The notes under the pieces: generated by a model
Told to the model about the DNA's origin: nothing
Database searches by the model: none
What the model saw: the letters and a program-made list of their open reading frames with translations, nothing else
Shown here: one piece after another, positions 3,079-6,023 of the stretch
How the letters are laid out: every line of letters begins with the position of its first letter
Position numbering within the stretch: position 1 is the first letter of the stretch
Made by a program: the position numbers and the translations under genes
Virus record (IMG/VR): IMGVR_UViG_3300002460_001321
Location: 1-23,722 of that record
Length of the DNA stretch: 23,722 nucleotides
Source: a virus
Strand: one strand, 5' to 3'

Positions 3079-3114
3079 GTATGTATAGAGTGCCACAGGA
3101 AAACTGACACTTAT

Positions 3115-3153
3115 GGAGGAAAAATGTCACAAGTCGCAAGCGGATTGACATAA
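3115..3153 (+). CDS. Possible 9-codon micro-ORF with a strong ribosome-binding site
   Basis: GGAGG at 3115-3119 lies four bases before ATG 3124, which opens MSQVASGLT and stops at 3151-3153. This is the only strong Shine-Dalgarno/ATG pair noticed in the window. The end of the micro-ORF overlaps the -35 box of the promoter at 3145. It could be a leader peptide, the remnant of a gene start, or chance. An alternative ATG at 3113 in another frame gives 11 codons. Confidence 0.3.
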   Translation, partial: GGKMSQVASGLT

Positions 3154-3173
3154 AAACATATCGGCAATATAAT
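3145..3173 (+). promoter_or_regulatory. Perfect consensus sigma70-type promoter
   Basis: TTGACA (3145-3150), exactly 17 bases, then TATAAT (3168-3173): every consensus base and the optimal spacing are present. Transcription should start near 3180, about nine bases before the ATG of the polybasic micro-ORF at 3189, and could continue through the scaffold and capsid genes. It lies in the longest gap around the portal, so coding constraint does not explain it. Activity is inferred from sequence alone. Confidence 0.85.
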
Positions 3174-3188
3174 AAAAATAATAAAATT

Positions 3189-3242
3189 ATGAAAAAATTA
3201 AAAAAGAAAGTTAAGAAAGCAAAGAAAGGTCGAGGTTACTAA
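3189..3242 (+). CDS. 17-residue polybasic peptide
   Basis: ATG 3189 opens MKKLKKKVKKAKKGRGY, ending at TAA 3240-3242. Eleven of seventeen residues are Lys or Arg and there are no acidic residues. It is the first ORF after the consensus promoter, starting about nine bases past the predicted transcription start, with no Shine-Dalgarno site. Small basic peptides are known to condense DNA in some virions (for example protein J of microviruses), so DNA or RNA binding is plausible, but no family was recognised. It could also be a non-functional leader ORF favoured by A-rich DNA. The promoter and the compact GRGY end support a real gene. Confidence 0.5.
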   Translation: MKKLKKKVKKAKKGRGY

Positions 3243-3270
3243 AAATAAATTTATTTATGGAAGTTAAAGT

Positions 3271-3675
3271 ATGAAAGTTAATGGATTCGAATTAGTTACC
3301 CAGGAAAAAATCTCTCGCGCGTTAGAAGGAGTTGTAACGGGGTCGGGAAATAAAGTCGGCGGCATCGCCAATCCCGACGGCTCCTATGATGATGACGCTT
3401 TACTTGCGGAGTATGACCGTTTAGGCGGGCTTATTCGGAAAGGGATAGACAAAGTGAAAACCGGTTCTTTTTATGACTTCAAAGCCAAGAAGCCAAGAAG
3501 CAAACCGGAAGTTTCGTTTTTATTCCGCGTAAACGGAAAAGAAGTTGAAGTGCCAGACGGGGCAGAGCTTCCCGGAATTGTAAAGGCCGCAAGGTTATTG
3601 GCGGGTGAAGAAGGAGAAGCGGCGGTTGGGAGAGTGAAGAAGGAAGTCAAGACGACAAAAAGGAAGGAAAAATAG
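3271..3675 (+). CDS. Hypothetical protein between portal and scaffold
   Basis: A 134-residue protein of unknown function. The N-terminal half contains LLAEYDRLGGLIRKGIDKVKTGSF-like amphipathic sequence, the middle a short beta stretch (FLFRVNGKEVEVP), and the last 25 residues are very basic (KKEVKTTKRKEK). No signal peptide, membrane segment or cysteine is present. A weak GGAAG at 3259-3263 precedes ATG 3271. The basic tail and place in the head operon suggest a nucleic-acid or capsid-assembly role, but this is only context. It abuts the next gene with no gap, so the two are probably cotranscribed from the promoter at 3145. Confidence 0.7.
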   Translation: MKVNGFELVTQEKISRALEGVVTGSGNKVGGIANPDGSYDDDALLAEYDRLGGLIRKGIDKVKTGSFYDFKAKKPRSKPEVSFLFRVNGKEVEVPDGAELPGIVKAARLLAGEEGEAAVGRVKKEVKTTKRKEK

Positions 3676-4124: not shown

Positions 4125-4862
4125 ATGACTAAAGAAGAAATCGAAGCGGCTGAAACCGCGAAAGCCGAAGCCGAGGCGAAAGCCGAAGCAGATGCGGATG
4201 CTTTGCTGGACAACGAAACCGAAGAGGAGAAGGAAGCCAGAGAAGCTGAAGAAGCACGTTCACAAATAGATTATGAAGCTGTTTTGAAAGTCGAGGAAGA
4301 AAGAATAGCCAGCCAACAAGCTATCGCTGAGGCCGAGTACAAACTGCGCGAAACCGAACACGATAAGAAAAAAATCGAGGAGGACGAAAAAAATAAACCT
4401 CTCACGCGCGGTGAAATGCAGGAGCTTCTTTTGAAAGAAAGACAGTCTGCCCAAAAAGAATTTCAAGAGCAAAGGGCTTTTGAAATTGCAAAGGGGTTGA
4501 CTGCTTCTGATGCGGAAGCGAAAGCCGCTGTCCTTTTTTGGAAAACGCGGGTTAATGCCACGGGCAATCTTGAAGAAGATGTTGCGTTTGCTGTTGGAGG
4601 ACTGAACTATAAAAAACTTATGGGACAAAACTCCGAACTGGCGCGAGCCCTACGAGGCAGAGAGACGGCGTTGAATGACGTTGCGGGAACATTTAGAGAT
4701 GCGCCCGAAGGCGTTGCGCCGAAGATGGACGCGGTAACAGTCGCCTCCTACAAACGAGCGGGATTCGCTTATGATGGTAAAGACCGACTTTGGAAAAAGA
4801 AACTGCCTAATGGCAAGTTCTTAATCAAAGACCCTCGCACTAAACAGACAACAATTTCGTAA
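4125..4862 (+). CDS. Probable capsid scaffolding protein
   Basis: A 245-residue, highly charged protein likely to act as internal scaffold for prohead assembly. Residues 1-110 are almost entirely Glu, Lys, Ala, Gln and Arg with heptad-like spacing, the pattern of a long acidic coiled coil. The C-terminal 45 residues become basic and compact (YDGKDRLWKKKLPNGKFLIKD region), as in scaffolds whose C-terminal helix-turn-helix binds the coat protein. There are no cysteines and no export signal. Placement after the portal and before the decoration and capsid genes matches the common portal-scaffold-coat order. The start is preceded by a hairpin and only a weak GGATG, so its translation may be controlled by the leader. 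No protease domain is seen, so it is a scaffold only. Confidence 0.75.
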   Translation: MTKEEIEAAETAKAEAEAKAEADADALLDNETEEEKEAREAEEARSQIDYEAVLKVEEERIASQQAIAEAEYKLRETEHDKKKIEEDEKNKPLTRGEMQELLLKERQSAQKEFQEQRAFEIAKGLTASDAEAKAAVLFWKTRVNATGNLEEDVAFAVGGLNYKKLMGQNSELARALRGRETALNDVAGTFRDAPEGVAPKMDAVTVASYKRAGFAYDGKDRLWKKKLPNGKFLIKDPRTKQTTIS

Positions 4863-4958: not shown

Positions 4959-5489
4959 ATGAGAGCAGACTTAAAAGTAATTGGCCCCGCGGCCATCTGG
5001 CCTCGCTACCTCGTAGCGGGAGGAACCAGTATTCAAGCGGGAGAACCAGTACATTCGGTGGCAACATCGTCAGGCGGCGTCGCAACCGCAAATACGTTCG
5101 TACTTGCGGCGGCGGATACACCAACGATAGGTACCCATAGGTTTGGCGGTGTGGCGAATGAAAATTCGCAGAATAATAGCGCGGCAACGCCAGTAGTGAT
5201 AGAGCAATTTCTTAACTGTGCGATTCCTGTTCCGAATGTCGGGCGGCTTCGCGGCGCGGCACAAACCGCCGCATCAGTAGATACGCTGACAGAGTTAGCC
5301 CTTATCATAGGAGACTTTACTCTTATCGACTACAACGCGACGGGCGCGTCAGATGGCGGACAGCTTTACACAATCATCGAAGTAGCTGTCGCGGACACTG
5401 CGGGACTGGAAATTGTCGGTGGCAATACGGCGCTATCAACTCTCGATGCAGTAGTCGATGCGCGAGCTTATCGGCTTGATGTAACCTAA
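4959..5489 (+). CDS. Probable capsid decoration protein, copy A
   Basis: A 176-residue, Ala/Gly/Thr/Val-rich protein of mostly beta character with no signal peptide and one cysteine. It begins MRADLKVIGPAA and contains AGEP, LAAADTP, GTHRFGGVANEN, PVPNVGR and LIDYNATGASDGG. It is paralogous to the gene at 5496, about two-thirds identical by eye over the full length. Small beta-barrel proteins encoded immediately before the major capsid protein are often capsid cement or decoration proteins (as with lambda gpD before gpE), which is the basis for the call. A minor capsid or head-fibre role is possible. No ribosome-binding site is visible between the hairpin at 4915-4949 and the ATG. Confidence 0.6.
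   Translation: MRADLKVIGPAAIWPRYLVAGGTSIQAGEPVHSVATSSGGVATANTFVLAAADTPTIGTHRFGGVANENSQNNSAATPVVIEQFLNCAIPVPNVGRLRGAAQTAASVDTLTELALIIGDFTLIDYNATGASDGGQLYTIIEVAVADTAGLEIVGGNTALSTLDAVVDARAYRLDVT
5321..5359 (+). repeat. 39-base segment shared exactly by the two decoration paralogs
   Basis: The bases encoding LIDYNATGASDGG are identical at 5321-5359 and 5852-5890, even at third positions, while flanking sequence has diverged. A second exact match of 21 bases lies at 5099-5119 and 5639-5659. Recent conversion between the copies or strong constraint on this loop would explain it. Confidence 0.85.
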
Positions 5490-5495
5490 ACCACC

Positions 5496-6023
5496 ATGAG
5501 AGGAGACCTTAGTGTTATAGGCCCTGCGGCGAGTTTCCCCCGTTATTTAGTAGCGGCGGGAACCGCCATCAGCGCGGGTGAGCCACTGCACAATGTTGGT
5601 GCAACCTATACGGGCGGGGCTACTGATGTAAATACTTCCGTACTTGCGGCGGCGGATACGCCGGTAATAGGCACGCACGCTTTCAGAGGAATTGCGAATG
5701 AAAACGCTGTACTTTCTGGGAGCACGGTCGCAGAACAGTTCTTAAATACTTCTAACCCCGTTCCCAATGTGGGAAGGATTCGAGGTAGAGCGGAGACTGT
5801 GGGGTCAGTGGATACATTGACCGAGCTGGCTCTTTTAATCGGAGATTTCGTTCTTATCGACTACAACGCGACGGGCGCGTCAGATGGCGGTGAGTTATAT
5901 CTCATTAAAGAAGCGGCTTCCGCAGATACATCGGGGCTTGAGTTAGTTGGCGGTAACACCGCCATTCAGACCTTAGATGTCGTAGTAGATTTCCGAGCAT
6001 ATCGCACGGATGTAACCACGTAA
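5496..6023 (+). CDS. Probable capsid decoration protein, copy B
   Basis: A 175-residue tandem paralog of the preceding protein, separated by six bases. It keeps the same framework: MRGDLSVIGPAA, AGEP, LAAADTP, IANEN, PVPNVGR, SVDTLTELAL, LIDYNATGASDGG and the closing RAYRTDV. Differences cluster in residues 35-50 and 68-85, presumably exposed loops. This copy has no cysteine. Both copies keep intact frames, so neither is a decaying duplicate; they may occupy different capsid sites or form a hetero-oligomer. No ribosome-binding site is seen before the ATG. The function is inferred from size, composition and position before the capsid gene. Confidence 0.6.
   Translation: MRGDLSVIGPAASFPRYLVAAGTAISAGEPLHNVGATYTGGATDVNTSVLAAADTPVIGTHAFRGIANENAVLSGSTVAEQFLNTSNPVPNVGRIRGRAETVGSVDTLTELALLIGDFVLIDYNATGASDGGELYLIKEAASADTSGLELVGGNTAIQTLDVVVDFRAYRTDVTT

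Follow-up and report, generated by a model that had tools for sequence, protein, structure and literature searches.

The J protein of phiX174-type microviruses is a small basic DNA-binding head protein, found in ssDNA phages that have neither a terminase nor a portal. In dsDNA phages, the charge of the packaged DNA is usually attributed to metal ions and polyamines. Short ORFs placed directly after a promoter and before an operon are familiar as the leader peptides of attenuated operons. We present here a polybasic micro-ORF lying behind an exact consensus promoter in the gap between the portal gene and the following gene, here called A2, of an uncultured phage. A literature search returned nothing directly on such peptides and nothing on DUF6496 (PF20106), a family of small basic proteins to which another product of the same phage belongs. 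We put the probability at about 0.5 that the micro-ORF is a genuine micro-gene, lineage-variable, dispensable and mobile, that encodes a polybasic nucleic-acid-binding peptide within the packaging and head module of a podovirus-like tailed phage.

Genome context

The window, meaning the whole stretch of 23,722 bases that was analyzed, is a 23.7-kb virus record; an identical 29-kb contig (L001) extends it upstream. It encodes a terminase, the portal, A2, a coiled scaffold candidate, two paralogous small head-type proteins, and a PF25209 capsid protein. The terminase shares about 41% identity with its counterpart in cyanophage Pam1. Threonine-, serine- and alanine-rich tail-type proteins recall a Patescibacteria host, which is an impression only. 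Portal relatives were found in viral_contigs (24 at 49 to 100% identity, with further ones recovered via alignment), and none were found in genome_contigs or the phage collection. The features at the locus are collected in Table 1.

Table 1. Features of the portal-A2 junction and its flanking genes (positions in the window)
Feature	Position	Strand	Description
Portal protein gene, 644 aa	1144-3078	+	phrog_156 portal, E 8e-5; upstream neighbor of the gap
Relic of the 3' end of an HNH endonuclease gene, VCIECHRKTDTYGGKMSQVASGLT and stop	3079-3153	+	Matches HNH-type C-termini in relatives
-35 box TTGACA	3145-3150	+	Sequence match; doubles as the last codons of the HNH relic, TTG ACA TAA
-10 box TATAAT	3168-3173	+	17-nt spacing; -10 elements enriched at the same junction in relatives
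Polybasic micro-ORF MKKLKKKVKKAKKGRGY	3189-3242	+	ATG to TAA; 17 aa, 9 Lys and 1 Arg (59% K/R); no Shine-Dalgarno; rare in gap shuffles
Conserved A2 leader element RGGTCG-N3-6-TTATTA	3227-3241	+	Window copy AGGTCGAGGTTACTA; overlaps the GRGY-stop codons
A2, the gene after the portal	3271-3675	+	134 aa, K-rich tail; homologues in nearly all relatives

The sequence-only reading, made before this analysis, had placed the micro-ORF in a portal-scaffold gap. That label does not hold, as A2 is not recognizably a scaffold: it has no PHROG or Pfam match, and its AlphaFold model (pLDDT 79) has no fold match. The scaffold candidate, a coiled E/A/K-rich protein, lies downstream of A2 at 4125-4862. The start of A2 is nearly duplicated at 3257-3284 (ATGGAAGTTAAAGT / ATGAAAGTTAATGG); the first ATG (3257) is out of frame, and its frame stops across the second. 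The A2 homologues in L006 (4401-4802), L010, L013, and L014 begin with an additional lysine-rich stretch (MIKAKKKKKIVKKEGKKLEGY...), which looks like a basic segment fused to A2. Just 5' of the capsid gene, the tandem paralogous small proteins at 4959-5489 and 5496-6023 are probably capsid cement or decoration proteins.

Promoter, micro-ORF, and HNH relic

The promoter agrees with the sigma-70-type consensus (TTGACA, 16 to 18 nt, TATAAT) at 12 of 12 positions with a 17-nt spacer, as the sequence-only reading had stated. It is the sole exact match among all 23,722 bases when both strands and spacers of 15 to 19 nt are considered. Shuffled sequences predict 0.03 such matches, and 3 of 100 shuffles contain one. 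Looser promoter-like matches are not enriched in the window (26 found versus 28.1 in shuffles). The exact promoter sequence, searched in viral_contigs, matched only the same phage. At the portal-A2 junction of the relatives, TATAAT occurs in 22 of 63 versus 34 of 270 control gene upstreams, and the extended form TGnTATAAT in 15 of 63 versus 16 of 270. Since -10 elements are thus enriched at this junction, the window promoter is a strong local version of a position-conserved promoter. Its location means that A2 and the head genes would be transcribed from it as well. A general enrichment of promoters before small basic ORFs was weak (p 0.014) and was set aside.

Transcription is predicted from sequence to start at about position 3180, about 9 nt 5' of the micro-ORF ATG, and the earlier description of a 17-residue polybasic ORF nine bases past the likely start is therefore upheld. 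The peptide has a net charge of about +10 and nearly lacks hydrophobic residues. The bases preceding the ATG (AATAATAAAATT) contain no Shine-Dalgarno sequence. Dinucleotide shuffling of the 192-nt gap in the window produced an equally long and basic ORF in 13 of 20,000 cases. The only second copy of the micro-ORF is in L001, which is identical to the window over 9,075 bases.

The HNH relic matches C-termini in L004 (NGRVLCIDCHKKTDTYAGK) and L032 (NGRVLCKNCHKSTDTYG), and the same relic is present in the portal-A2 gap of L030. An intact HNH gene (PF01844, 2e-14) occupies this gap in L007. HNH endonucleases are scattered through these phages, with decayed C-terminal fragments in L030 (7914-8051) and L004 (5766-5867) as well as in the window, and insertions recur in the portal-A2 gap. 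The window illustrates how the remnant of a homing endonuclease gene can come to underlie a promoter.

Relatives and recurrence of small basic ORFs

The gap between the portal and the next gene was compared in about 65 nonredundant IMG/VR relatives. In most, the portal-to-A2 distance is 10 to 60 nt and no micro-ORF is present. Among those surveyed, gaps of more than 75 nt are not empty spacer; they are filled by short or longer ORFs, including the HNH endonuclease of L007 and basic proteins of 43 to 93 aa in L061, L067, and L072. Lysine-rich micro-ORFs occur in this gap in the window, in L030 (MKKKKVAKKVKKAVKKVSKKK, 21 aa, ending KKK), and in L051 (MKKTVKKVAAKKKAPTKKKRG, 21 aa, ending KRG, without GGTCG). 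The distance from micro-ORF stop to A2 start is 28 nt in the window and about 21 to 22 nt in the other two. Directly 3' of A2, L035 encodes a lysine-rich peptide of 18 aa (MKKTKKTVKKVAKKGKKK). These four are the cases of 17- to 21-aa peptides with at least 50% K/R encoded adjacent to A2 on the coding strand. The expectation that relatives would hold un-annotated K/R-rich micro-ORFs is thus confirmed for the same and neighboring gaps.

The portal tree places the window, L030, and L051 apart from one another, on different branches, and in each case a sister has no gap ORF. Most relatives have no micro-ORF in the gap, and the sister taxa L002, L032, and L015 are among them. L015, the closest relative of L051, keeps TGnTATAAT and lacks the micro-ORF. 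Compared with its close relatives L038 and L039, L035 contains one extra block of about 60 nt, a discrete insertion in which the micro-ORF lies. The separate branches, the absence from L015, and the insertion in L035 together indicate that the micro-ORF was gained and lost, or moved. The sequence-only reading had named a promoter kept without the micro-ORF as evidence against itself. This counts by half against it, as several relatives, including L015, show that pattern. In L035, there is also a hint that the micro-ORF originated by duplication of the K-rich tail of A2.

A conserved leader element precedes A2. GGTCG is present upstream of A2 in 27 of 63 relatives (43%) versus 5 of 270 (2%) upstreams of other genes, mostly 24 to 39 nt (about 32 nt) before the A2 start codon and often followed by GTTAAT. 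The junctions that carry the element include those of L002, L015, L016, L017, L019, L024, L028, L029, L032, L060, L064, L066, L069, L073, and L084, among others. Some copies of GGTCG are intergenic and others, overlapped by the portal gene, are read in differing frames; the motif is therefore a signal in DNA or RNA and not in the peptide, possibly a regulator site or an RNA element. No RNA family or structure was found at the A2 leader. In the window, the element lies exactly where the micro-ORF reads K-G-R-G-Y-stop, so that the cis-element dictates the last five codons. Neither this element nor the HNH relic figured in the sequence-only reading. GRGY was accordingly rejected as a peptide signature at this locus and cannot be used as peptide evidence. 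The conserved GRGY-type end anticipated by the sequence-only reading is not seen in L030 or L051 either.

Small basic ORFs recur beyond chance in these phages. ATG-started ORFs of at least 15 aa with at least 50% K/R were found in 10 of 257 same-strand gaps; 200 shuffles gave a mean of 0.115 and never more than 2, and the opposite strand of the same 257 gaps held none. Longer basic genes of the same module are under purifying selection, a result that applies to these longer genes only: homologous pairs gave pS/pN values of 0.68/0.29, 0.62/0.28, and 0.83/0.35. A 9-nt indel between the basic genes of L005 and L009 preserves the frame. A C-terminal Tyr is present in 12 of 30 small basic ORFs versus 22 of 643 larger proteins, a comparison in which some ORFs are homologous to each other and the p-value overstates independence. 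Basic proteins of 27 to 72 aa are encoded 5' of the terminase in many relatives, and several of them begin with S-[RSG]-A-x-[KR] and end in Tyr. The window's phage encodes a 55-aa DUF6496 protein there (MPLSSSARRMFMRQAMREL...KTRKAGY; L001 1148-1315, E 2e-8), beyond the left end of the window.

A scan of 2.9 million viral contigs for KKGRGY-stop returned 39 stretches, mostly without a start codon. Besides the window's phage, four lysine-rich micro-ORFs with this end lie in structural or lysis operons (L116, L107, L113, and L114), of which those of L113 and L114 have a GGAGG ribosome site. The ORF in L117 is out of frame inside an acidic coil gene and was treated as spurious. K-rich micro-ORFs ending in KKGRGY or KKGY are present in structural or packaging operons of unrelated phages, namely L116, L113/L114, and the cultured Zobellviridae phage MEP401 (OP830906.1; L143 198-263), which has an un-annotated 21-aa ORF (MMDKKKKKKVMKKKKPMKKGY) 5' of its terminase. 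In that region, MEP402 has an annotated 37-aa K-rich protein. The micro-ORF of L116 is absent from the same spot in MEP401 and MEP402.

Interpretation and comparison with known systems

If the micro-ORF is a gene, the sigma-70-type promoter would start a transcript about 9 nt before its ATG, with the micro-ORF as first cistron and A2 and the head genes next. Were it transcribed and translated, as we infer, the peptide would bind nucleic acid and have a role in the head. It would most likely be unstructured and would neutralize or organize nucleic acid; DNA during head filling is the first candidate target and RNA the second. DNA condensation, action on nucleic acid, and a leader peptide, the roles proposed by the sequence-only reading, are each possible, and that interpretation as a whole is partly supported. 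A broader claim, which we find doubtful, is that podovirus-like tailed phages widely carry genes for tiny (12 to 40 aa), lysine-rich, often Tyr-ended peptides that hop around the terminase-portal-head region, act as protamine-like packaging or core peptides, and are missed because they fall below gene-calling limits.

The main rival regards the promoter and the A2 leader element as the functional features and the ORF as a by-product of an A-rich leader joined to GGTCG, left behind after decay of the HNH gene, with no peptide made or needed. We consider this possible and lean against it. A-rich leaders yield lysine codons easily, which weakens the case for a micro-gene; the HNH relic overlaps the -35 box, GGTCG underlies the GRGY codons, no Shine-Dalgarno is present, and the promoter occurs without the micro-ORF in L015, L011, L013, L017, L032, and others. 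Against a by-product stand the rarity of so long and basic an ORF in gap shuffles, a family-wide excess of such ORFs that has no counterpart on the opposite strand, and similar ORFs elsewhere without the GGTCG element (L035 and L048).

It is unlikely that the micro-ORF is a translated leader (upstream ORF), in which translation rather than the peptide would control A2 and ribosomes ending on GGTCG would uncover or hide that element or reinitiate at A2. No attenuator was detected at 3180-3290, where the fold is weaker than in shuffles (z +2.2) and no terminator-like site lies on the + strand; L051's ORF lacks GGTCG, and the basic ORF is 3' of A2 in L035 and L054. The placement of the ORF's 3' end on the leader element and the short stop-to-A2 distances in the window, L030, and L051 speak, however, for such control. 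Very improbable, in our estimate, is a truncated or relocated copy of one of the small basic proteins whose usual gene position is 5' of the terminase and which have the S-R/S/G-A-x-K/R motif at the N-terminus and a Tyr at the C-terminus. In its favor, proteins of this kind are found 5' of TerL in many relatives and within the portal-A2 gap in L061, L067, and L072, the window's phage has its upstream 55-aa DUF6496 protein, and the C-terminal half of L009's protein is among the best matches to the peptide. The micro-ORF, though, has neither the N-terminal motif nor an in-frame upstream start, the similarity is mostly lysine composition (E about 0.1 to 0.7), and the cis-element accounts for the shared GY end.

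Provided that they are translated, peptides of this kind would form a layer of phage head genes that is invisible to current annotation, with a protamine-like role in dsDNA phages that can be tested. The analysis also brought to light a conserved leader element, RGGTCG...TTATTA, before the post-portal gene in a large group of uncultured phages.

Among known systems, the attenuation leaders resemble the micro-ORF in being short, directly 3' of a promoter, and before an operon, but the window lacks terminator and antiterminator hairpins and an amino-acid biosynthesis context. The DUF6496 protein encoded upstream of the terminase by the same phage is likewise small and basic, whereas the micro-ORF has only 17 aa and no DUF6496 region; the 21-aa relatives in L030 and L051 have no PF20106 match. 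J protein shares the very short length, the K/R-rich composition, the place among head genes, and an aromatic last residue. DNA binding is proven for J, however, and the micro-ORF phage is no ssDNA microvirus: it has TerL, a portal, and a PF25209 capsid protein, no homology to J is demonstrable, and the aromatic end of the micro-ORF coincides with the cis-element. The micro-ORF of Methylophilales phage MEP401, although it comes from Zobellviridae with other neighbor genes and no demonstrated homology, resembles that of the window in size, composition, xGY end, and position in the packaging region.
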